DNA from: Methylobacterium sp.
Lineage (GTDB): Bacteria > Pseudomonadota > Alphaproteobacteria > Rhizobiales > Beijerinckiaceae
Direction of reading: 5' to 3'
DNA: 64,000 bases
Assembly (NCBI GenBank): GCA_020252645.1
Contig: JADCCN010000002.1
Span: forward strand, 186,001 to 250,000
Numbering within the stretch: the first letter of the stretch is position 1; every line of letters starts with the position of its first letter. Below, one piece after another: positions 1,083-58,530 of this stretch. A program made the translations under genes and the position numbers. The notes under the pieces are model-generated. The model had not been told where the DNA came from. It saw only the letters and a program-made list of their open reading frames with translations, and did not search any database.

Positions 1083-1330
1083 GCACCATGCTCCAGGTCT
1101 TCTTGCTGATCAGCCCGCTGCTCCTGCTGGTTCTTGTGATTTTTTGGGCAGATCGGGGCCGAGATCCCGGCAATGTGTTTACCTCTCGGCAGAAGCGGGA
1201 GGATGAATCCGCAAGACGGCTCCGAGCCGACGGCGATACAGGCGGGAGCTATGTCCCGATCGTCAACGGGGGTAAATTTTCCAACGCCGGTGATGCTGGT
1301 GGTGGCGATTGTGGAGGCGGGGGCGACTAG
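1079..1330 (+). CDS. small membrane protein with Gly/Cys-rich tail
   Basis: Protein of 83 residues without a recognised family. Residues 1-23 form one hydrophobic helix (LLISPLLLLVLVIFWA), followed by a basic-acidic linker (RQKREDESARRL) and a C-terminal tail of Gly, Asp and one Cys (GGGDCGGGGD). Such Gly-Cys tails occur on small bacterial membrane proteins of unknown function. It is translationally coupled to the SRAP gene through ATGA. Its stop codon TAG (1328-1330) is made from the duplicated TA of the flanking repeat plus the first G of that repeat. Function unknown; coding status is supported by the coupling and by a membrane helix with charged flank. Confidence 0.7.
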   Translation: MSTMLQVFLLISPLLLLVLVIFWADRGRDPGNVFTSRQKREDESARRLRADGDTGGSYVPIVNGGKFSNAGDAGGGDCGGGGD

Positions 1331-1429
1331 AGCATGATGTGTTCAGACGGAAGCACATCATGCTCTAATCTTATTATTATCGCATGCTTTTTTGTGAAAA
1401 ACCGGATTCCACTTTTTCACAGCATGCTC
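1330..1429. mobile_element. two-hairpin TA-flanked repeat, subfamily A (100 bp)
   Basis: Element begins GAGCATGATGTG and ends CAGCATGCTC, with TA directly outside each end (1328-1329 and 1430-1431). It consists of hairpin 1 (GAGCATGATGTG / CACATCATGCTC, 1330-1365), an AT-rich linker, and hairpin 2 (arms GCATGC and GTGAAAAA / TTTTTCAC) whose loop holds the core ACCGGATTCCAC. It lies between convergent genes, and its ends supply TAG stop codons to both. No coding capacity. The architecture recalls rhizobial intergenic mosaic elements; mobility is inferred from the TA duplication. Confidence 0.9.
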
Positions 1430-2667
1430 TAGCGCGTGAAGACCGCCATGACCTCGACATGGGCCGAATAGCGGAACTGGTCCACCGGGGTCACCGGCTC
1501 CAGCCTGAACCCGCCATCGACGAGGATGCGCGCATCGCGCGCGAAACTTTCAGGATCGCAGGAGATCGAGACGACCTTCGCAACCTTCGATTTCGCCAGC
1601 TCGCGCGCCTGCGCCTCCGCACCCTGGCGGGGCGGGTCCATCAGAACCGCATCGAAAGGTTTGAGATCCGGCGCAAAAAACGGGCGACGGAACAGATCGC
1701 GCGCCTCGGCCACCAGCGGCTTGCCGCCGGGATTGGCGCGGATGGAGCGGGAAAGCGCCTCGATCGCCCCCTTGTCGGAATCGATCGCACTCACCTTCAC
1801 ATGCCGCGCGAGCCGCAACGCGAAAGGCCCCAGACCGCAGAAAAAATCAGCGACGTGCTTCGCGCCCTTCAGCGCCTCCACGGCAAAGCCCGCAAGAGTC
1901 GCCTCGGCCTCGGCGGTCGCCTGCAGAAAGGAGCCGGGCGGCAGATAGGCCGTGAGGCCATCGAAGGTGAGCACCGGCACGCGCGCCTCGATCAGGCGTT
2001 CGCCATGCAGGGAGAGGCGGGCAAGATCGCGCTCGCGGGCGAAGGCGATGAGCTTCTGGCGCAGGCCATCCACCAGCGGGCCGGAGCCGCGGATGTCGCA
2101 ATCGATGCCCGCATCGCAGGCCGTGACCTGGACATCGAGCGGCTTGGCGACCCCGCGCAGGATATGCCCGATGCCCCGGGCGATCTCCGGCGCAGGCGCG
2201 AGCGCGGGCACCAGAAGCGGGCAGGAATCGAGATCCACCAGCGCATGGCTGCGCGCCTGCATGAAACCCGCCTCGATGCGCCCGCCAGGCGCCTTGGGGT
2301 ATCGCACATGCAGGGTCACGCGGCGGCGGCCTGCGCCATGGGCAACACGCGCGGGCAGCACTTGCGCCGCGATCTTCGCGCGGCGAAGGGCCGTTGCCAC
2401 ACGCTCGCGCTTCCATTCGGCAATCCGTTCTCCGGCCCAGTGCTGCACGGCGCAACCGCCGCAGCGGGTGAAGTGCGGACAGGGCGGGAGGACGCGATCC
2501 GGGCTTGCCTCCACGATGTCGAGCAGCGTGCCGCGCTCGCCCTCGCGGGTGATGCGCGCTGTTTCGCCCGGCAACACGAAAGGCACATGCACGCGGTGGC
2601 CATCCGCCATGCCGATGCCATCGCCGCGCGCGCCCATGGCGGTGAAGGTGACGTTTTCGGGATTCAT
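1429..2667 (-). CDS. RumA/TrmA-family RNA (uracil-5-)-methyltransferase
   Basis: SAM-dependent RNA uridine C5-methyltransferase, 412 residues. The N-terminal region resembles a TRAM domain (residues 1-55). The iron-sulfur ligands typical of RlmD/RlmC are present: CPHFTRCGGC at about residues 63-72 and a fourth Cys in LDSCPLL. The methyltransferase core has the SAM loop DFFCGLGPFALRLA, the motif MDPPRQG and the catalytic Cys of SISCDP; the base-acting Glu is in AHVEVM near the C-terminus. It probably modifies 23S rRNA, but the target base cannot be assigned. The start overlaps the tlyA stop by four bases, so the two methyltransferases are coupled. Its TAG stop is formed by the flanking repeat. 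Confidence 0.92.
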   Translation of the reverse strand: MNPENVTFTAMGARGDGIGMADGHRVHVPFVLPGETARITREGERGTLLDIVEASPDRVLPPCPHFTRCGGCAVQHWAGERIAEWKRERVATALRRAKIAAQVLPARVAHGAGRRRVTLHVRYPKAPGGRIEAGFMQARSHALVDLDSCPLLVPALAPAPEIARGIGHILRGVAKPLDVQVTACDAGIDCDIRGSGPLVDGLRQKLIAFARERDLARLSLHGERLIEARVPVLTFDGLTAYLPPGSFLQATAEAEATLAGFAVEALKGAKHVADFFCGLGPFALRLARHVKVSAIDSDKGAIEALSRSIRANPGGKPLVAEARDLFRRPFFAPDLKPFDAVLMDPPRQGAEAQARELAKSKVAKVVSISCDPESFARDARILVDGGFRLEPVTPVDQFRYSAHVEVMAVFTR

Positions 2668-3395: not shown

Positions 3396-3505
3396 GAGGG
3401 GTGAATGGTTTCGGCCTGGCCTGCAACCGCTATGGCTCCATCTATGTTCCGAAACAAGACGCTTCCGCCTGGGCCACGGGGCCTGGGCGGGAAAGCGCTT
3501 TCCGA

Positions 3506-3511
3506 AGGAGG
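3506..3511 (+). promoter_or_regulatory. Shine-Dalgarno of the broken sod gene
   Basis: A perfect AGGAGG at 3506-3511, six bases before codon AAG at 3518. Reading from 3518 gives K-N-T-Q-L-S-R-R-L-F, the start of a twin-arginine signal. The best explanation is that AAG is a mutated ATG start, leaving an orphan ribosome binding site. Confidence 0.6.
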
Positions 3512-3517
3512 AACCCC

Positions 3518-4340
3518 AAGAATACCCAACTCTCCCGTCGCCTGTTTCTTGCCGGTGCCGCGGTCGCAGCCGGCGCCAGCGCCCTGCCGCGCACGGTGTT
3601 CGCTGAGGCTGCTCCCCCCGCAGCCCCGGCCGGCCCCTTCACGCTGCCGCAGCTCGGCTAGAGCACGTCTCGTTTTGATGGAATCAAAACCGTGCTCTAT
3701 CTTATTGTTTTGTCGCATGTTGTTGCGCATCATGCTCTATGCCTTCAACGCGCTGGAGCCGCATATCGATGCGATGACAATGGAGATCCACTCCCAGCGG
3801 CACCATGGCGCCTTCATCGCCAACCTCAACAATTTCGCAAAGGACCACGGCGTGCTCGCGAATGGCTCGATCCCCGGGCTGCTCGCGGATTGGCAGCAGC
3901 TCCCGGAGGCGATCCGCATGGGCGCGAAGAATTCGCTCGGCGGCCATGCCAACCATGCCATGTTCTGGCAGATCATGACCCCCGGCGGCGCGAAGGCGCC
4001 GGAGGGCGACCTCAAGGCCGCGATCGACCGCGACCTCGGCGGTTTCGACAAGCTGAAGGCCGATTTCAACGGGGCCGGTGGCCGCCTGTTCGGTTCGGGC
4101 TGGGTGTTCGTCACGGTCTCGAAAGATGGCAAGTTCGCACTCGTCTCGAAGCCGAACCAGGATACCCCGCTCATGGACGGCCAGATGGTGCTTTTCGGCA
4201 ATGACGTGTGGGAGCACGCCTATTATCTGAAGTACCAGAACCGCCGCCCGGAATATCTCGCGAACTGGTGGAATGTCGCCAACTGGTCGAAGATCGCCGA
4301 GCGCTATGCCAAAGCCCGGGCCGGCACGCTGGAGATCTGA
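3518..4340 (+). pseudogene. Tat-exported Fe/Mn superoxide dismutase, split by a repeat element
   Basis: Fe/Mn superoxide dismutase broken by a 77-bp repeat. The first part (3518-3658) encodes a twin-arginine signal (LSRRLFLAGAAVAAGASALP, cleavage near VFA) and the SOD N-terminus FTLPQLG, then stops at TAG 3659-3661. The second part (3740-4340, different frame) resumes YAFNALEPHIDA and is complete to the C-terminus, with the metal ligands in HSQRHHGAF, LGGHANHAMFW and DVWEHAYY. Removing the element plus one TA copy (79 bases) rejoins Gly-Tyr-Ala-Phe in frame. The start codon also looks lost (AAG at the ATG position behind a perfect AGGAGG). An ATG at 3732, within the element end, could allow an unexported catalytic domain to be made, without an obvious ribosome binding site. 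Confidence 0.88.
3661..3737. mobile_element. TA-flanked repeat, subfamily B, internally deleted (77 bp), inside sod
   Basis: Element running from GAGCACGTCTCG to CATCATGCTC, flanked by TA at 3659-3660 and 3738-3739. Hairpin 1 (3661-3697) has arms GTTTTGATGGAATCAAAAC within GAGCACG/CGTGCTC. Hairpin 2 is truncated: compared with the reverse complement of the copy at 14305-14403 it lacks about 22 bases including the ACCGGT core. It is the only copy in the window within a protein-coding sequence, and the empty site can be reconstructed exactly. Confidence 0.9.
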
Positions 4341-14006: not shown

Positions 14007-14305
14007 CGAATGTCGAGTTCTCCATCCTGCTGATGGCGATGGCGCTCGCTTCCTATGGCTGCCGCGTTGCCGGCTTCCTCGCGATGCGCTTCGTGACGAT
14101 CACGCCGCGGATCGAGGCTGCGCTGCGCGCTACCCCGCTTTCGGTCATGGCGGGCATTGTCGCGGTCGCGGCCATGCGCGGCGGGCCCGCGGAATGGATC
14201 GCATCCGCCTCGGTGGTCGTTCTCATGAAGCTCACCGGGCAGGATGTGCTCTCGGCGCTCGCCGGCGTCGCGATCGTGGCGCTGATGCGCTGGGCGGGGC
14301 TCTAG
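14003..14305 (+). CDS. azlD: AzlD-family exporter small subunit
   Basis: Small hydrophobic protein of 100 residues, the usual AzlD length, with three to four membrane helices (FSILLMAMALASYGCRVAGF at the start; ALAGVAIVALMRWAGL at the end). Motif RVAGFLAMRFVTITPRIEAAL is typical of the family. Translationally coupled to azlC. Its stop TAG (14303-14305) comprises the TA target plus the first G of the downstream repeat; removing the two repeats would give TAA in the same place, so the protein is unaffected. Confidence 0.92.
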   Translation: MTNVEFSILLMAMALASYGCRVAGFLAMRFVTITPRIEAALRATPLSVMAGIVAVAAMRGGPAEWIASASVVVLMKLTGQDVLSALAGVAIVALMRWAGL

Positions 14306-14403
14306 AGCGGTTGCGCAAAAGTGAATACCGGTTTTGCGTAACAACATGCGACAAAACAATAAGATAGAGCTCGGTTTTGATTCCATCAAAACGAGACGTG
14401 CTC
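14305..14403. mobile_element. two-hairpin TA-flanked repeat, subfamily B (99 bp)
   Basis: Element from GAGCGGTTGCGC to GAGACGTGCTC. The hairpin with arms GCGCAAAA / TTTTGCG carries the core GTGAATACCGG; the other has arms GTTTTGATTCCATCAAAAC. Left TA is 14303-14304, right TA is 14404-14405. The right two thirds match the reverse complement of the copy inside sod (3661-3737), which establishes subfamily B from two copies. Confidence 0.88.
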
Positions 14404-14405
14404 TA

Positions 14406-14505
14406 GGGCATGATGTGTTCAGACGGAAGCACATCATGCTCTTATCTTATTATTATCGCATGCTTTTTTGTGAAAAACCGGATTCCACTTTTTTACAGCA
14501 TGCTC
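14406..14505. mobile_element. two-hairpin TA-flanked repeat, subfamily A, tandem copy (100 bp)
   Basis: Element nearly identical to the copy at 1330-1429 but starting GGGC instead of GAGC. It shares the TA at 14404-14405 with the subfamily B copy on its left and has TA 14506-14507 on its right, where it forms the TAG stop of the minus-strand gene ending at 14505. A copy that inserted at the TA bordering an existing element would give this arrangement. Confidence 0.88.
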
Positions 14506-14747
14506 TAATTCTTCAGGCGCAAGGAATATTCGCCGGCGCGAATGCGCTCGGGCAGGCGTTCGGCGAATTTGGAGACCGCATCCTCGCCATAGGTGGCCAC
14601 GAGTTCCACGAAGGCCGCGAACAGGGCCGCATGGGCGAGGCAATCGCCGTCGATGCCGTCATGGCGCCCCTCGGCGAAGGCCTCGTTGATATAGCCATAG
14701 GCCGCACGCCGTTGTTCGGCGAAATGCGCGTCGCTGGCGGTTCCCAT
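14505..14747 (-). CDS. small conserved-looking hypothetical protein
   Basis: Protein of 80 residues from the ATG at 14747, without a recognised family. It is predicted helical (DAHFAEQRRAAYGYINEAFAEGRHDGIDGDCLAHAALFAAFVELVATYG) and ends RAGEYSLRLKN. The open frame extends upstream to 14948 only through a TTG start and a low-complexity Cys/Arg region, so the shorter form is preferred, although no clear ribosome binding site is seen. The stop codon is TAG formed by the right end of the flanking repeat. Possibly soluble and cytosolic; function unknown. Confidence 0.6.
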   Translation of the reverse strand: MGTASDAHFAEQRRAAYGYINEAFAEGRHDGIDGDCLAHAALFAAFVELVATYGEDAVSKFAERLPERIRAGEYSLRLKN

Positions 14748-29359: not shown

Positions 29360-30004
29360 ATGAACAGCCATTCTTCAGAAACGATGTCCTCATTGTCTCG
29401 CGTCCTGAAAACATGTGTTGCGGCTTGCATTTTGCTCGCGGCCGCTGCGTGCAACACCTACACCTCCTTCCCTGATCCGAGCCTCTCGAAGCGCGATGTC
29501 GAATTGCTGGCGCTCGCGCCGCAGGGCTTCGCGCGAGAACTCGATCCGGCGCGGGCACGCATTCGCATGCCGAATTCGACGGGCGAAAAGACACCGGGCA
29601 CGATCATTGTCGATAACGAGGCCCGCTTCCTGTATTTCGTCGAGGATCCGAATACGGTCCTGCGCTACGAGATCTCGCCGGGCATGGAATCGCATCAGTG
29701 GCGCGGCACCGCCACCATCGGTCGCAAGGTCGAATGGCCCTCCTGGACTCCGGGGACCGAAGCGCGCCGCATGGCACCCGGCCTGCCGGCCATGGTGCCG
29801 GGCGGCCCGAACAACCCGTTGGGGGCGCGCGGCCTCTACCTTCATGACGAGCGGGGCCGCGACACGGAATATCGCATCCACGGCACGAACGAGCCGGAGA
29901 TGATCGGTCAGCCGGTGTCGCTAGGCTGCATCCGCATGCACAATATCGACGTGATCGATCTCTATACCCGCGTGCAGATCGGCTCGAAGGTCATCGTGCG
30001 ATAG
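29360..30004 (+). CDS. L,D-transpeptidase (ErfK/YbiS/YnhG type) lipoprotein
   Basis: YkuD-type L,D-transpeptidase of about 214 residues. The N-terminus has a hydrophobic signal ending in a lipobox (CILLAAAACNTY), so it is probably a lipoprotein. The catalytic region YRIHGTNEPEMIGQPVSLGC contains the His and, at its end, the nucleophilic Cys (SLGCIRMHN). These enzymes make 3-3 peptidoglycan crosslinks or attach proteins to peptidoglycan. The start could be 29360 or 29384; neither has a strong ribosome binding site. The stop TAG (30002-30004) is created by the downstream repeat; without the repeat the codon would be TAA. Confidence 0.92.
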   Translation: MNSHSSETMSSLSRVLKTCVAACILLAAAACNTYTSFPDPSLSKRDVELLALAPQGFARELDPARARIRMPNSTGEKTPGTIIVDNEARFLYFVEDPNTVLRYEISPGMESHQWRGTATIGRKVEWPSWTPGTEARRMAPGLPAMVPGGPNNPLGARGLYLHDERGRDTEYRIHGTNEPEMIGQPVSLGCIRMHNIDVIDLYTRVQIGSKVIVR

Positions 30005-30104
30005 AGCATGCTGTTAAAAAAGTGGAATCCGGTTTTTCACAAAAAAGCATGCGATAATAATAAGATAAGAGCATGATATGCTTCCGTCTGAACACATCAT
30101 GCTC
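30004..30104. mobile_element. two-hairpin TA-flanked repeat, subfamily A, reverse orientation (101 bp)
   Basis: Reverse-oriented subfamily A copy with TA at 30002-30003 and 30105-30106. It carries small differences from the consensus (CTGTTAAAAAAG instead of CTGTGAAAAAG; GATATGCTTCC instead of GATGTGCTTCC). It provides the stop codon of the L,D-transpeptidase gene. Confidence 0.88.
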
Positions 30105-30178
30105 TAAGAAGCAGGCTTGGAGAGAAACAAGCCGGGCGGCCTTGCGGGTCGCCTTGTTCGTTTCCAGCCTGATGGTTT

Positions 30179-30531: not shown

Positions 30532-30631
30532 GAGCATTTTCCGATCAAGTGGATACCGGTTGATCGAAGAAAATGCGGTAAATCAAGAGCTAAGAGCGGT
30601 CGATCTCATTCAGTCAGATCGGCAACCGCTC
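30532..30631. mobile_element. two-hairpin repeat, subfamily C (100 bp)
   Basis: Element from GAGCATTTTCCG to GGCAACCGCTC. Hairpin 2 (GCATTTTC / GAAAATGC enclosing CGATCAA / TTGATCG) has the core GTGGATACCGGTT; hairpin 1 has arms CGATCT / AGATCG. The right end is followed by TA (30632-30633), which it shares with the next element; the left flank is TG instead of TA, so the left target site has decayed or differed. Confidence 0.82.
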
Positions 30632-30633
30632 TA

Positions 30634-30733
30634 GAGCATGCTGTGAAAAAGTGGAATCCGGTTTTTCACAAAAAAGCATGCGATAATAATAAGATAAGAG
30701 CATGATGTGCTTCCGTCTGAACTCATCATGCTC
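30634..30733. mobile_element. two-hairpin TA-flanked repeat, subfamily A, tandem copy (100 bp)
   Basis: Reverse-oriented subfamily A copy directly adjoining the subfamily C copy through the shared TA 30632-30633. The right flank is CA rather than TA and hairpin 1 has one mismatch (CTCATC for CACATC), signs of decay. The downstream gene is the convergent-side end of marR at 30765. Confidence 0.85.
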
Positions 30734-31423: not shown

Positions 31424-32194
31424 ATGGCATCGCGGCTTTCCTTCGCACGTCAATCCCGTTTCACGATCTGGGCCGAGCACCTTGCCTTCGTGGCAGTTCC
31501 GCTCGCGCTTCTGGCCATTCTGCTTGCGCGATCCGGCCAGGTTGATCCGGCGCAGGCGCTGGTGCTCATCGGGCTCGCGGCTTTTCTCGCCATGCTGGCG
31601 CTGGCGGTGGCCGGGGTTGGCGCCATCGATATGTGGCGGAACGGGCGAACGGGCCTGTTCCGTCTGTTCCGGTCCATCTTTCTCGCCCTGGCTGTTCTTG
31701 GCGGGCCGGCCTTTCTGGCGATCGAGGCCAGGCGCCTTCCTCTTCTCAACGACATCACGACCGACCTCGATGATCCGCCGGAATTCTCGCGCTCCTCGGT
31801 GGCGCTTGCCGCCCGGAAGGGGCATGTTCCGCCCGTCCGCGACCCGCGCGAGCGCGAGCGCCAGCGCCCCGCCTATCCGGATATCCGGCCGCTGGTGCTG
31901 GATATGGAGGCCGATCAGGCTTTCCGGCTGGTTCGGGAGGCGGTGCAGAAGCTGCGCTGGCGCATCATCGAGCAATCGGCGCCGGGTGGCCGCTCGGGAC
32001 AGGGGCGTATCGAGGCGATTGCCGAGACGACCCTGCTGCGCTTTCAGGACGACATCACGATCCGCTTCCGCCCCTCCCCGGCCGGAACACGCGTGGATAT
32101 CCGCTCCGCGAGCCGCATCGGCCGGCATGATTTCGGCGCGAATGCCAAGCGCATCCGCCGTCTCGCGGAGGAAATCCTCGCCTCGCGCGATTAG
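31424..32194 (+). CDS. DUF1499 membrane protein
   Basis: Protein of 256 residues. The N-terminal third has three hydrophobic helices (AEHLAFVAVPLALLAILLA, ALVLIGLAAFLAMLALAVAGV, FRSIFLALAVLGGPAFLAI), and the rest is a DUF1499 domain (NDITTDLDDPPEFS, AYPDIRPLVLDMEADQAF, GRIEAIAETTLLRFQDDITIRFRP, GRHDFGANAKRIRRLAEEI). Function unknown; these proteins may contact lipids or the envelope. The start at 31424 avoids an unsupported 10-residue extension. The stop TAG (32192-32194) includes the first G of the downstream repeat. Confidence 0.85.
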   Translation: MASRLSFARQSRFTIWAEHLAFVAVPLALLAILLARSGQVDPAQALVLIGLAAFLAMLALAVAGVGAIDMWRNGRTGLFRLFRSIFLALAVLGGPAFLAIEARRLPLLNDITTDLDDPPEFSRSSVALAARKGHVPPVRDPRERERQRPAYPDIRPLVLDMEADQAFRLVREAVQKLRWRIIEQSAPGGRSGQGRIEAIAETTLLRFQDDITIRFRPSPAGTRVDIRSASRIGRHDFGANAKRIRRLAEEILASRD

Positions 32195-32229
32195 AGCATG
32201 ATGTGCTTCCATCTGAACACATCATGCTC
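32194..32229. mobile_element. solo hairpin 1 of subfamily A (36 bp), TA-flanked
   Basis: GAGCATGATGTG / CACATCATGCTC stem alone, flanked by TA at 32192-32193 and 32230-32231. The linker and hairpin 2 are absent. It still ends in GAGC/GCTC on both sides, so hairpin 1 alone behaves like a complete unit with a TA target, at a stop codon again. Confidence 0.85.
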
Positions 32230-32234
32230 TAGAC

Positions 32235-32330
32235 GCATTTTTGCGATCCAGCGGATACCGGTTGCCGCCGGAGGAGCGATGAACCAAGACGGCAGGGCAG
32301 TATTCGGACTGAGCCATTGAGATCGGAATC
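32235..32330. repeat. degenerate subfamily C-like repeat
   Basis: GCATTTTTGCGATC, the core GCGGATACCGGTT and an end GAGATCGGAATCCGCTC resemble a decayed subfamily C element between the DUF1499 and metallo-beta-lactamase genes. The hairpins are largely lost. Confidence 0.5.
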
Positions 32331-32338
32331 CGCTCCGG

Positions 32339-44675: not shown

Positions 44676-46258
44676 AAACGAAACTGCACTTTCTCGGGGC
44701 GGCCGGCGGGGTCACCGGCTTCTGCGTGCTGATCGAGACCGGCCGCGCCCGGGTGCTGGTCGATTGTGGCCTCTTCCAGGGGCCGAAAACCCTCAAGCAA
44801 CTGAATTACAATGATTTCCCGTTCTCGCCTGCCGCGATTGACGCGGTGCTCCTCACCCATGCCCATATCGACCATAGCGGGCTGATCCCCAAGCTTGCCG
44901 TGCGGGGCTTTGCCGGGCCGATCCATGCCACGGCGGGCACAATTGCTCTGTGCGGGGTGATGCTGCCGGATGCCGGCGCCATTCAGGAAATGGAGGTCGA
45001 AACGCTCAATCGCCGCAATGCGCAGCGGGCGCGCGAGACGGTCGAGCCGATCTACACCAAGGCCGATGCCGAGGCCTGCATGAGCCAGTTCAGTGCCGTG
45101 GCGCTCGACACCTGGCTCGCGGTCGCGCCGGGTATCCGGGCCCGATGGTGGAATGCCGGGCATATCCTCGGCTCGGCCTCGATCGAGGTGGAGGTGGAGC
45201 AAGGCGACGCGACCGAGACGCTGCTCTTTTCCGGCGATCTCGGACCGGGCGGGCGCGAATTCGCCGATGATCCCGAAGGGCCGCAGGGCGTTGATCACCT
45301 CATCCTCGAGAGCACCTATGGCAATGTCGAGCGCGAGCCTGTCACGCAGGATCAGCGCCGGAAGGTGCTGGCCAAGGCGCTCCAGGCCGCCCATGATGCG
45401 GGCGGTCCGCTGCTCATCCCCGCCTTCGCTGTGGAGCGGACGCAGGAGCTGATCGTCGACCTGCTCGAACTGATGGAAGGCGGCGATGCGCCGCGTGGGC
45501 CCATCTTCCTCGATTCACCGCTCGCCATCCGCGCGAGCAAGGTGTTCCTGCAGAAGGGCCAGGCCCAGGATGGCACGGAGCGTTTCCGCAGGATGCGGGA
45601 ATCGAACCTGCTGCATTTCACCGAAAGTGCCGATGAAAGCCGCTCCATCGAACGCATCCGCGGCTGGCACATCATCATTGCCGCCAGCGGCATGTGCGAT
45701 GCCGGCCGGGTGCGGCACCATCTCAGGCGATTGCTGCCCCGCAAGGAGGCCACCGTGCTGATTGTCGGCTTCCAGGCTGTCGGCACGCTGGGGCGCCTGT
45801 TGCAGGATGGTCGCCAATGGGTCCGGATCCAGGGCGATGATATTCGCGTGAAGGCGGCGATCCGCTCGATCGATGTCTATTCCGGCCATGCCGATGCAAA
45901 GGCGCTGGTGGCATGGGCCAAGGCGCGCGGGCCGGTCACGGGGAGCATCTTCCTGCTGCATGGCGAGCCCGAGAATCTCGCGGGGCTGCAACGCCGTCTC
46001 CAGGCCGAGGGGCTCGCCAATGGCCGGGTCGTCGTTCCGAAAATGGACGAGGCCTTCGCGATCGCGCATCGCCATGTCAGCGCCGATGAGACGCCCATGC
46101 CCCCGCGCATTCCAACGGAAGCCGTCTCACGGCTGGACTGGCACAATGCACGCGCTGCCTTGCTGGCGGATCTGAACGAAAAGCTGGAAAACGCCGCCGA
46201 TGACCGCACGCGCGAGCGGATGATCGAGGAGATCAAGCGCAAGATAGCCTCTTTCTAG
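44672..46258 (+). CDS. metallo-beta-lactamase/beta-CASP ribonuclease-like protein
   Basis: Protein of 528 residues of the CPSF/YSH1-like group. The metallo-beta-lactamase motif THAHIDHSGLIPKL binds two zincs; further ligands are in WWNAGHILGSASI and FSGDLGPGG. The beta-CASP insertion carries ESTYGNVE, IPAFAVERTQELI, SGMCDAGRVRHHL and the C-terminal His motif VYSGHADAKAL. The RNA-metabolising C-terminal segment extends to FLLHGEPENLAGLQRRL. Related enzymes cut or trim RNA. Last gene of the operon; its stop TAG is formed by the downstream repeat. Confidence 0.92.
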   Translation: MKTKLHFLGAAGGVTGFCVLIETGRARVLVDCGLFQGPKTLKQLNYNDFPFSPAAIDAVLLTHAHIDHSGLIPKLAVRGFAGPIHATAGTIALCGVMLPDAGAIQEMEVETLNRRNAQRARETVEPIYTKADAEACMSQFSAVALDTWLAVAPGIRARWWNAGHILGSASIEVEVEQGDATETLLFSGDLGPGGREFADDPEGPQGVDHLILESTYGNVEREPVTQDQRRKVLAKALQAAHDAGGPLLIPAFAVERTQELIVDLLELMEGGDAPRGPIFLDSPLAIRASKVFLQKGQAQDGTERFRRMRESNLLHFTESADESRSIERIRGWHIIIAASGMCDAGRVRHHLRRLLPRKEATVLIVGFQAVGTLGRLLQDGRQWVRIQGDDIRVKAAIRSIDVYSGHADAKALVAWAKARGPVTGSIFLLHGEPENLAGLQRRLQAEGLANGRVVVPKMDEAFAIAHRHVSADETPMPPRIPTEAVSRLDWHNARAALLADLNEKLENAADDRTRERMIEEIKRKIASF

Positions 46259-46366
46259 AGCATGCTGTGAAAAAGTGGAATCCGGTTTTTCACAAAAAAG
46301 CATGCGATAATGATAAGATAAGAGCATGCTGTGAAAAAGTGGAATCCGGTTTTTCACAGCATGCTC
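46258..46366. mobile_element. chimeric TA-flanked repeat with two copies of hairpin 2 (109 bp)
   Basis: TA at 46256-46257 and 46367-46368. The left part is subfamily A hairpin 2 (core GTGGAATCCGGTT), then the linker GATAATGATAAGATAA, then, instead of hairpin 1, a second full hairpin 2 unit ending CACAGCATGCTC. Both halves are GAGC...GCTC or GCATGC bounded, so parts appear interchangeable. Confidence 0.88.
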
Positions 46367-46447
46367 TAAGCCATCGAGGCGGCGCGCATGCGAGGCCGCG
46401 CTCCCGCGATGATCGCGGCAGGGCAGATGTCTCTCCCGTTCCTGTTC

Positions 46448-56437: not shown

Positions 56438-56866
56438 ATGACCGGGGATGCCGGCCGCAAACCTGCCCGCCGCTTCCTGCGAGAGGGGATCGCGGAGTTG
56501 CGCTTCACACGCGCCAGCGGGCCGGGCGGACAGAACGTCAACAAGGTCTCGACGGCGGTGGAACTGCGTTATCCGCTGGCGCAGGCGGGGCTCGCGGAGG
56601 ATCATCTCCAAAGGTTGCGGAAACTTGCCGGCGACCGGGTGACGCAGGAGGATGTGCTGATCCTGAAGGCGGATCGATTCCGCTCGCAACTTCTCAATCG
56701 CGAGGACGCGCTGGACCGGCTCGAGGAGATGCTCGTCAAGGCCGCGATCCGGCCGCGCAAGCGCATCGCGACGAAGCCAACCTGGTCCTCGCAGCAAAAG
56801 CGACTCGAGGGGAAGACCAAGCGATCAGGCATCAAGGCGGGGCGTGGTGCGGTGAAGTTCGAATGA
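56438..56866 (+). CDS. arfB: alternative ribosome-rescue factor ArfB (YaeJ)
   Basis: Peptidyl-tRNA hydrolase domain protein of 142 residues that rescues ribosomes stalled without a stop codon. The release-factor-like motif FTRASGPGGQNVNKVSTAVELR contains the catalytic GGQ. The C-terminal basic tail (RKRIATKPTWSSQQKRLEGKTKRSGIKAGRG) enters the mRNA channel in characterised proteins. The start at 56438 has GGAGGGG five to six bases upstream; the frame extends to 56381 without support. The stop is TGA directly followed by AGCATTTTC of a repeat. Confidence 0.96.
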   Translation: MTGDAGRKPARRFLREGIAELRFTRASGPGGQNVNKVSTAVELRYPLAQAGLAEDHLQRLRKLAGDRVTQEDVLILKADRFRSQLLNREDALDRLEEMLVKAAIRPRKRIATKPTWSSQQKRLEGKTKRSGIKAGRGAVKFE

Positions 56867-57112
56867 AGCATTTTCAAGCGAAGTGGGAACCGGTTCGCGT
56901 GAAGAAAATGCGAAAAAGAAAGAGAGAAGCATTTTCAAGCGAAGCATGTCCCGGCGAAGTCAGGGATGGGAACCGGTTCGCGTAAAGAAACCACGATAAA
57001 CAACAAAAACATAACGCATCCGATCTGGTTCATTCAGATCGACCGATCTAAGCTCTTGATTTACCGCATTTTCTTTCGAAGAACCGGTATCCAATTCTTC
57101 GAAAAAATGCTT
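56867..57112. repeat. cluster of degenerate palindromic repeats
   Basis: About 246 bases without a gene. From left: a hairpin unit 56867-56911 (AGCATTTTC ... GAAAATGC, core GTGGGAACCGGTT), a second longer copy starting AGCATTTTC near 56938 with an inserted sequence and a GATCTGGTTCATTCAGATC hairpin, and a subfamily C-like unit in the other orientation (TTGATTTACCGCATTTTC, core AACCGGTATCC) ending AATGCT near 57111. They adjoin the intact subfamily A copy at 57115. Confidence 0.75.
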
Positions 57113-57114
57113 TA

Positions 57115-57214
57115 GAGCATGATGTGTTCAGACGGAAGCACATCATGCTCTTATCTTATTATTATAGCATGCTTTTTTGTGAAAAACCGGATTCCACTTT
57201 TTCACAGCATGCTC
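57115..57214. mobile_element. two-hairpin TA-flanked repeat, subfamily A (100 bp)
   Basis: Copy almost identical to that at 1330-1429 with TA at 57113-57114 and 57215-57216. Its right end makes the TAG stop of the minus-strand MFS gene; without it that codon would read TAA. One base differs in the linker (TATAGCATGC for TATCGCATGC). Confidence 0.9.
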
Positions 57215-58530
57215 TAGGCTCTGCGCTGCTCGATCTCCGCACGCAGGCCGGCCTGCACGACGGCATCGACCGGAAATCGCCAGATCAGCGCCGTCGCCGC
57301 CAGCTTCAGCGCCACGGGCAGGCCGGCATAGAGGAAGGCCAGCATGGCCAGCCCGCTCTCGGACTTCTGGCCATTGGCCGGGTCGAAGCCCGCCCAGGCG
57401 AGAAGCGGGAAAGCAATGCCCACGGCCAGGGCAAGCGCGGCCTTCTGCGCCAGCGCCCAGAGCGCGAAATAGAAGCCCGAGCGCTGCTCGCCGGAAGCCG
57501 CCGTGTCGACATCCACCACATCGGCCTGAATGGAGGGCGGGAGCATCAGGTCGGCGCCCAGCGCGAAGCCGGTGAGCACGCAGATGATGCCATAGGCGAG
57601 CAGTGCGCCGGCCGGCAGGGCCGCGGCGGCGACAAAGGCGACGCTGGCCATCAGCATCGCCCAGGCCCAGACGCGATGCTTCGAGGTGCGCCCCGCGAGC
57701 TTCAGCCAGAACGGCACGGAGAGCACGGCGCAAAAGAAATAGATCAGCAGGAACAAGGGCTCCTGACCCGCCGCGCCCAAGCGTTCCGCGACGAAAAACA
57801 GGAAGAGGCTCGCGGGCAGGCCATTCGCAAGCCCGTTCAGGAAAAACGCCGCGATCAGCCGCAGGAAGGGCTGGTTCGCGAGGAGATGGCGGAAGCCCTC
57901 GCGCCAATCGAGCCGCGCGACGGAGCGATCCTCCGGCTCGGGCACGGTGAGGATCGCCAGCGACCCGAAGAGCGGCAGCAGCAAGGCGATGGCAATCGCG
58001 ATGGCCCAGAGGACATCCATCTGCCGGGTGAACCCAAGGGCGGGGAGAAGCGCCGGCGTCGCCGTCACCAGCACTGTGCCAACCACGGTCACGGTTTCGC
58101 GAAAGGCGGTCACGCGGTTGCGCTCCGCATAATCCGGCGTGAGTTCCGCGCCCCACGCGGCATAGGCGAGGCCCGTCGCCGTAGTGCCGATGGAGAGGAC
58201 CAGGCCCCAGATCGCGAGGTGCCAGGCGCCGGCGCCGGCCGGCGGCACGAGGATCATCCAGGCTCCGGCGAGGATCAGCGGGATGCCTGCCGCGAACCAG
58301 ATTTTCCGCCGCCGCGACCCACCGGAGCGGTCAGCCCAATAGCCCACGACAGGGTCGATCAGCGCGTCGAAGAGGCGCACCACGAGCAGGGCAAAACCCA
58401 CCGCCGCAATCGGCACCCCCAGTTCCCTGGCATAGGCCGAAGGCACGATGACCGTAAGCGGCAGGGACAATGCGGCCAGCGGAACCGCAGGCAGCGCATA
58501 GGCGAGAAGGCGGGCGGGGTTGGGCAACAT
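57214..58530 (-). CDS. MFS transporter of the GPH (MelB-like) type
   Basis: Sugar:cation symporter-like protein of 438 residues with twelve hydrophobic helices. GPH features: VRLFDALIDPVVGYWADRSGG in loop 2-3 region and RRRKIWFAAGIPLIL after it, ERNRVTAFRETVTVVGTVLV near helix 4-5 and a central acidic loop (TVPEPEDRSVARLDWREGFRH). The C-terminal half holds GADLMLPPSIQADVVDVDT. Substrate is probably a sugar or glycoside, not determined. Upstream gyrB ends 32 bases before its start on the same strand. The stop is formed by the flanking repeat. Confidence 0.9.
   Translation of the reverse strand: MLPNPARLLAYALPAVPLAALSLPLTVIVPSAYARELGVPIAAVGFALLVVRLFDALIDPVVGYWADRSGGSRRRKIWFAAGIPLILAGAWMILVPPAGAGAWHLAIWGLVLSIGTTATGLAYAAWGAELTPDYAERNRVTAFRETVTVVGTVLVTATPALLPALGFTRQMDVLWAIAIAIALLLPLFGSLAILTVPEPEDRSVARLDWREGFRHLLANQPFLRLIAAFFLNGLANGLPASLFLFFVAERLGAAGQEPLFLLIYFFCAVLSVPFWLKLAGRTSKHRVWAWAMLMASVAFVAAAALPAGALLAYGIICVLTGFALGADLMLPPSIQADVVDVDTAASGEQRSGFYFALWALAQKAALALAVGIAFPLLAWAGFDPANGQKSESGLAMLAFLYAGLPVALKLAATALIWRFPVDAVVQAGLRAEIEQRRA

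Follow-up and report, generated by a model that had tools for sequence, protein, structure and literature searches.

At positions 1328-1431 of the 64,000-nucleotide stretch of Methylobacterium DNA analysed here (the window), a short repeat lies precisely between two convergent genes and contributes to the stop codon of each, which raises the question of how such a sequence can enter the ends of two genes at once and leave both of them properly terminated. A previous sequence-only reading of this locus had described a 100-bp element with TA on both sides, in which TA and the element's first G form the stop of the plus-strand gene and the other end does likewise for the minus-strand gene, and each of those observations was borne out. 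The element, a type A copy (of the types defined below) in minus orientation, occupies 1330-1429, with TA copies at 1328-1329 and 1430-1431; an open reading frame of 83 amino acids on the plus strand (1079-1330) terminates in a TAG composed of TA and the first G, and a tRNA (uracil-5-)-methyltransferase-like gene on the minus strand (1429-2667) has its TAG at the opposite end. Its terminal inverted repeats are GAGCATGATGTG at the start and the complement of GAGCATGCTGTG at the end, and its predicted fold consists of two hairpins separated by an A/T-rich linker (z -9.1 as DNA and -7.0 as RNA).

The same reading had claimed that removal of the element together with one TA would leave CTAG, a stop for both genes, and that is what was found where the element is missing: the focal site in loci L012 and L013 contains a single CTAG, which is at once the TAG of the methyltransferase gene and the opposite-strand TAG of an open reading frame with the same Gly/Asp-rich tail, and the same element is present at that site in L009. 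In L010 and L014, apparently different short inserts follow the methyltransferase stop, exactly at the focal element's CTAG. The mechanism is simple: because TA followed by the element's first base reads TAG in both orientations, insertion into a TAA or TAG keeps the stop at the same codon whichever strand encodes the gene, and insertion into a CTAG common to two convergent genes keeps a stop for both.

Six further TAG stops had been attributed to similar repeats in the window, and all of the named sites were correct (gene names are from Pfam, and the features are given without strand unless one is stated). A tandem pair at 14303-14507, composed of a type B element (14305-14403) and a type A element (14406-14505) with TA at 14303, 14404 and 14506, provides the TAG stops of azlD (plus strand) at 14303 and, at 14507, of a minus-strand open reading frame of 147 amino acids that has no Pfam match. 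A type A element (30004-30104, insertion 30002-30106) lies at the TAG of a YkuD L,D-transpeptidase gene; a type A single hairpin followed by a decayed remnant (32192-32335, the element at 32194) lies at that of a DUF1499 gene; a mosaic element with two first-hairpin arms (46256-46368) lies at that of a beta-CASP nuclease gene; and at 57216 the TAG of a minus-strand MFS gene is supplied by an array (56866-57216) in which two type F elements are accompanied by a type C and a type A element. The window also contains an intergenic tandem (30532-30733, plus strand) whose outer flanks are not TA, made up of a type C element at 30532-30631 and a type A element at 30634-30733, and a partial type B element at 3659-3739 inside a superoxide dismutase gene. 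A search of the window with Rfam at gathering scores returned two tRNAs only.

The extent of the family was established in a sample of 1.25 Mb (41%) of the 3.05 Mb, 25-contig genome, comprising the window and contiguous stretches of three contigs, which were used because they avoid selection by element content. Iterated profile searches with six models identified 181 two-hairpin elements in 113 blocks, amounting to 1.3% of the sample (three models had given 167 elements in 107 blocks); 47 of the 113 blocks hold two or more elements, and the junctions between tandem neighbours are often CTAG. The focal copy has at least 41 full-length matches of 96-100% identity in its own genome, counted from the 40 of 149 candidate stretches that were scored, and its end motif has 229; outside that genome, the focal copy was matched 0 to 5 times in each of 16 genomes of the genus, apart from G009 with 27 matches. 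A search of a plasmid collection gave distant matches only, in 15 records (Methylobacterium, Bradyrhizobium, Bartonella and others). The elements are about 100 bp in length with near-identical 12 bp ends beginning with G, and display the features of a miniature inverted-repeat transposable element (MITE): they are short and non-coding, occur in many near-identical copies, and possess terminal inverted repeats and a TA duplication. Type A was taken as the youngest type because its copies are nearly identical.

With ends positioned by the element's own GAGC, independently of the flank, type A ends have TA immediately outside in 105 of 114 cases and TG in 2, in a sample in which TA makes up 1.1% of dinucleotides; the prediction of TA on both sides therefore holds for young copies, and the more diverged type C has TA at 70 of 126 ends. 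(Excluded from these end counts were 41 block ends in this genome and 22 in a sister species, G010, that had no recognisable GAGC end or lay at the end of a stretch.) Of blocks with TA on both sides, 32 of 36 have the target YTAR (CTAG 11, CTAA 9, TTAG 9, TTAA 3; the first model set gave 33 of 37), as do 8 of 9 in the sister species. Insertions away from stops show the same preference, with a pyrimidine before TA in 63 of 67, so the YTAR preference belongs to insertion itself and does not derive from stop codons; G precedes 1% of TA ends, and no longer motif beyond Y-TA was evident around occupied sites. The element thus inserts at Y-TA-R and comes to lie between two copies of TA. The earlier proposal that the target is TA stands as regards the flanks and is narrowed to YTAR as regards the site, purine-preceded TAA and TAG stops being hardly used: a pyrimidine precedes 52 of 58 element-made stops, whereas among free stops it precedes 38 of 176 that are TAA or TAG and 62% of those that are TGA.

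A gene caller built for this analysis on a hexamer model identified 1173 genes in the sample, with 932 TGA, 125 TAA and 116 TAG stops. At 58 of the 125 TA-flanked block ends, TA and the element's first base form the stop codon of the gene that reads towards the element; in 5, a gene runs on into the element and stops inside it; and at the remainder the gene stops upstream or no gene points at the end. The rule that the first G rebuilds the stop holds for 54 of the 58, which are TAG, and not for the other 4, which are TAA formed with a first base of A; the elements thereby account for 54 of the 116 TAG stops in the sample. Counted as blocks, 53 of the 113 lie at stops (5 of them on both sides), 32 are intergenic, 4 fall within genes and 24 lack a TA end.

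Two observations bear directly on whether these insertions found a stop or created one. If the element could truncate a gene anywhere in its 3' part and supply a new stop, frames 1 and 2 should account for two thirds of such ends; they account for 5 of 63 (58 versus 5, p = 2e-22 against an expectation of one third for each frame). In addition, 43 of the 58 element-made stops could be mapped to the sister species, and the homologous codon there is itself a stop in 41, which indicates that elements land in existing stops. One of the two exceptions is a TAT codon in the superoxide dismutase gene, and the other is an alignment that runs into an element. (The mapping left out genes below 150 bp, matches below 82% identity, or 80% for element-made stops, and matches more than 9 bases short; 15 of 58 such stops in this genome and 7 of 29 in the sister species were unmapped.) Truncation does occur, in that the insertion in the superoxide dismutase gene is a true interruption, with a premature TAG at 3659 where no old stop existed, and four blocks lie inside genes; as a general explanation it was rejected on the frame test and the homologous stops, and is barely credible.

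The identity of those homologous codons complicates the expectation that empty sites carry a single TA. That expectation is upheld by the focal CTAG in L012 and L013, by a single CTAG in the sister species at C12:257884 and by relatives that keep a TA stop, and is contradicted by 13 of the 23 element-free orthologues in the sister species, which are TGA (the others being TAG 8, TAA 1 and TAT 1). At sites with a TAA residue the orthologue is TGA in 6 of 6, compared with 19 of 73 for element-free TAA stops of this genome (Fisher p 0.0006), an excess over background that counts against the simple single-TA picture. These counts lend something to the alternative that elements insert at TGA stops that later change to TAG, which is nevertheless very improbable: young ends should then show a TG duplication, the reverse of the flank counts given above, and TG followed by G makes TGG, which is no stop. 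At window position 30003, moreover, where the sister species and all 15 further genomes read from the genus lack an element, the codon is TAA in four relatives (G011, G003, G004 and G005) and TGA in 11, including G009, as well as in the sister species. The TGA orthologues are read as stop turnover in lineages that escaped invasion, because TA-containing stops were open to invasion in the sister species too.

Stops are also occupied far more often than their number would predict. Free sites in the sample comprise 37 YTAR stops, 412 intergenic YTAR and 221 coding YTAR; the ratio of filled to empty is 53:37 at stops and 32:412 in intergenic sequence, an odds ratio of about 18 in which the filled counts take in non-YTAR targets (Y precedes TA in 47 of the 53). 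The predicted excess at TAA and TAG stops was accordingly found, and insertions are far commoner at stops than at other YTAR sites. It is highly probable that the element is a non-autonomous, MITE-like member of the two-arm repeat class of alphaproteobacteria (CIR-, Bru-RS- or RIME-like, a class assigned by description), which targets YTAR and for which TAA and TAG stops are safe harbours. Copies would be placed at YTAR by a trans-acting transposase, which to judge from the target would be IS630- or IS427-like; copies inside genes or at promoters would be lost, and those in stops, chiefly between convergent genes, would be tolerated; over time most YTAR stops would fill, and some would be re-used by newer subfamilies.

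The distribution of insertions with respect to gene orientation is consistent with that account. In the three-model set, the filled counts of which include a few non-YTAR targets, filled and empty YTAR sites number 37:12 at stops and 7:18 elsewhere between convergent genes, 14:29 and 19:233 between genes on the same strand, and 6:156 in divergent intergenic sequence, a gradient that fits the loss of harmful insertions. The earlier suggestion that elements enter stops without cost is thus sound insofar as the stop is rebuilt; neutrality itself is only inferred, and insertions are rarer between same-strand than between convergent genes. Within each orientation class stops are still favoured six- to eightfold, so that gene orientation alone is insufficient as an explanation. 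Several causes could add to it: longer exposure of the conserved TA of stops, protection from deletion or better retention, positive selection, and true targeting.

Two of these may be weighed further. Selection for a putative role of the hairpins at 3' ends, in transcription termination or insulation or in mRNA stability, would agree with the 37 of 51 stop blocks that lie between convergent genes, where 37 filled stops compare with 12 empty YTAR stops, and with reports, in the part of the source available, that REP sequences are also found near 3' ends (PMC3733652). We consider it unlikely, since such a role would not depend on the element being in register with the stop codon. Nor is the orientation expected of a terminator favoured: the first hairpin is followed by the T-rich linker in 20 of 58 copies of all types and in 10 of 33 type A copies at stops, the latter standing 23 to 10 against that arrangement, which does not favour a terminator role. 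Active targeting, by which the transposase would recognise stop codons or translated 3' ends in addition to YTAR, would account for the preference for stops between convergent genes (odds ratio 8 relative to other YTAR sites there), and for the young single type A copies, which are already distributed as 10 at stops, 7 intergenic and 1 in a gene. It is quite unlikely, given that no motif beyond Y-TA is evident at occupied sites and that non-stop insertions use the same YTAR.

Occupancy of the same stops in both species suggests that some of these sites may be re-used. Where a homologue in the sister species of an element-made stop keeps its TA, it too is occupied in 18 of 27 cases, compared with 1 of 19 for YTAR stops that are free in this genome; in the reverse direction, starting from element-made stops of the sister species, the counts are 15 of 15 versus 10 of 27. 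At all 18 shared stops the element end in this genome and the element in the sister species differ in profile type, 9 being type A against D, E or F, with the proviso that types C, D and E resemble one another closely. In one instance, at C1:23959, a single type A element in this genome and a single element of another subfamily in the sister species lie between the same two stops. Either new copies were inserted beside old ones that were later lost, or insertions occurred independently at the same stops; some old copies in shared stops are likely to reflect common ancestry.

The rule was also recovered in other genomes. In 1.11 Mb of the sister species, in stretches selected partly by synteny, the frame test gave 29 versus 2 among 53 TA ends, and 25 of 44 TA blocks are at stops; the subfamilies differ from those described above, type A being all but absent and others prevailing. 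In two genomes of another family (G246 and G087), in stretches chosen for holding copies, it gave 18 versus 0 among 30 TA ends, with no stops arising from 35 non-TA ends. In those stretches (L264-L283) TAG makes up 120 of 352 stops, compared with about 10% in the Methylobacterium genome; the 5' ends of the element model that was applied account for 18 stops, which leaves most of the TAG stops unexplained. TG is there the second commonest element flank (21 of 65). An exact-pattern search of the order returned 30 copies (30 loci fetched) from 15 of 297 genomes, 21 of them preceded by TA and in every case by YTA; of these 21, 10 terminate, in frame 0, an open reading frame that has at least 173 codons and scores positively for coding, and the other frames give no such case, the 173-codon cut-off having been fixed after the data were seen. 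Among the 9 non-TA copies is one (L248, at 1500) with CT in front, in which a 441-codon open reading frame ends in a TGA made of T and the element's GA, an alternative route to the rebuilding of a stop. A broader proposal, to which we would give about an even chance, is that a stop-living lineage extends across the Hyphomicrobiales: YTAR would hold the stop and the first G would rebuild it from either side, making TAA and TAG a renewable harbour that successive subfamilies re-colonise at the same stops in different species, with most usable stops becoming filled, TAA converted to TAG, and exit possible only via TGA.

IS630, IS5/IS427 and Y1 transposases were considered as mobilising partners in the genome itself and discarded, because DDE_3, DDE_Tnp_1, DDE_Tnp_1_2 and Y1_Tnp had no match there. 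Relatives hold some DDE_3, DDE_Tnp_1 and DDE_Tnp_1_2 proteins; the Y1_Tnp profile (PF01797), which matched in 5 of 14 genomes as a control, was in the comparison with relatives applied to the Methylobacterium genome only. Paired type A ends 200-3000 bases apart were not found in the 41% of the genome that was read. Several contigs of the assembly start with an element, and insertion sequences may therefore have been lost at contig breaks. IS630 elements prefer TA within CTAG, and IS427-like elements use TA. Scanning of 16 transposase loci of relatives (L208-L223, with L224-L233 outside the scan) revealed TA-flanked inverted ends in two, both beginning with GG and not GAGC, and a looser scan for ends at two IS630 loci of relatives yielded nothing convincing. 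The two loci, L211 and L218, encode IS5/IS427-like transposases between TA-flanked inverted ends that start with G (GGCATC... and GGTTCAGG...), and their enzymes are possible models for the missing transposase.

That two-palindrome repeats constitute a known class was correctly stated in the original reading, as two-arm repeats with TA termini are on record in alphaproteobacteria (CIR, Bru-RS and RIME; comparisons here draw on the portions of the cited papers available). CcrM-associated intergenic repeats (CIR; Chen and Shapiro 2003, as described in PMC2229807) are about 110 bp in length, with two hairpin arms, a linker, TA termini and a GANTC site conserved near a loop. The elements described here share the arms, linker and termini, and a GANTC site is enriched in type A (46 of 51), type B (6 of 6) and the sister species' types D (11 of 17) and E (13 of 18), relative to about 0.3 in shuffled sequences; in contrast with CIR, types C (9 of 33) and F (1 of 14) show no such enrichment, and no stop-codon rule was found for CIR in the available text (PMC2229807). 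Bru-RS1/2 of Brucella are palindromic intergenic repeats of 103-105 bp (PMC2267715, PMC2266754), which the present elements resemble in length and description; IS711 of Brucella has a YTAR target with TA duplication (PMC2266754) and is reported to prefer Bru-RS repeats (PMC2267715, PMC2266754), whereas no IS711-like enzyme was found in this genome. Rhizobium intergenic mosaic elements (RIME; PMC2573895) are likewise repeated, intergenic and, by their name, mosaic, a likeness of description only, and stop codons go unmentioned in the accessible part of that report. RUP (with IS630-Spn1) and MITEPsy1 are MITEs of 100-107 bp found at TA, or at CTAG/YTAA, and thought to be derived from or moved by insertion sequences (PMC2229807, PMC3189936); they are similar in length and in their TA-containing target, and differ in that the consulted sections report no stop-codon bias for them.

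The closest precedent for the stop rule, as far as the available text extends, is the GTAG class of REP sequences, which are reported to 'often provide' a TAG stop to flanking genes and to lie close to convergent 3' ends (PMC3733652). Those sequences are single palindromes of 20-40 bp linked to tyrosine transposases, and no TA duplication or YTAR target was found for them in that text (PMC3733652); here, by contrast, the TAG is composed of two target bases and one element base. Of the marks of a REP or REPIN, neither a Y1 (RAYT) transposase (PF01797) was found in the genome nor a GTAG/CGTC tag at the element end, the element beginning with GAGC. What is known is therefore a class of two-arm repeats with TA termini; a stop rebuilt from a TA duplication and an element base was not found described in searches of an open-access collection, a scope that does not include most subscription papers or the founding papers on Bru-RS (1994), RIME (1995) and CIR (2003).

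The behaviour of this family would represent a simple and countable route by which a parasite becomes harmless in a compact genome, in that its end and its target together rebuild the very signal that it hits; part of stop-codon usage would correspondingly be a by-product of mobile elements. It predicts which genes can be invaded (those with YTAA or YTAG stops and convergent neighbours) and which cannot (those ending in TGA), and offers a test case for separating target choice from selection.

Two minor observations concern altered copies. Mosaic elements, such as the two joined first-hairpin arms at 46256-46368 and a type A head with an apparent type C tail at C1:114508-114584 of this genome (G000, locus L115), point to recombination between copies. 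Finally, in the superoxide dismutase locus (3405-4340), the element at 3661-3739 lies between an apparent Tat-like leader, so designated from our own reading of the sequence, and the enzyme domain, and supplies both a TAG and an in-frame ATG ahead of that domain; the insertion might thereby have turned an exported superoxide dismutase into a cytoplasmic form.
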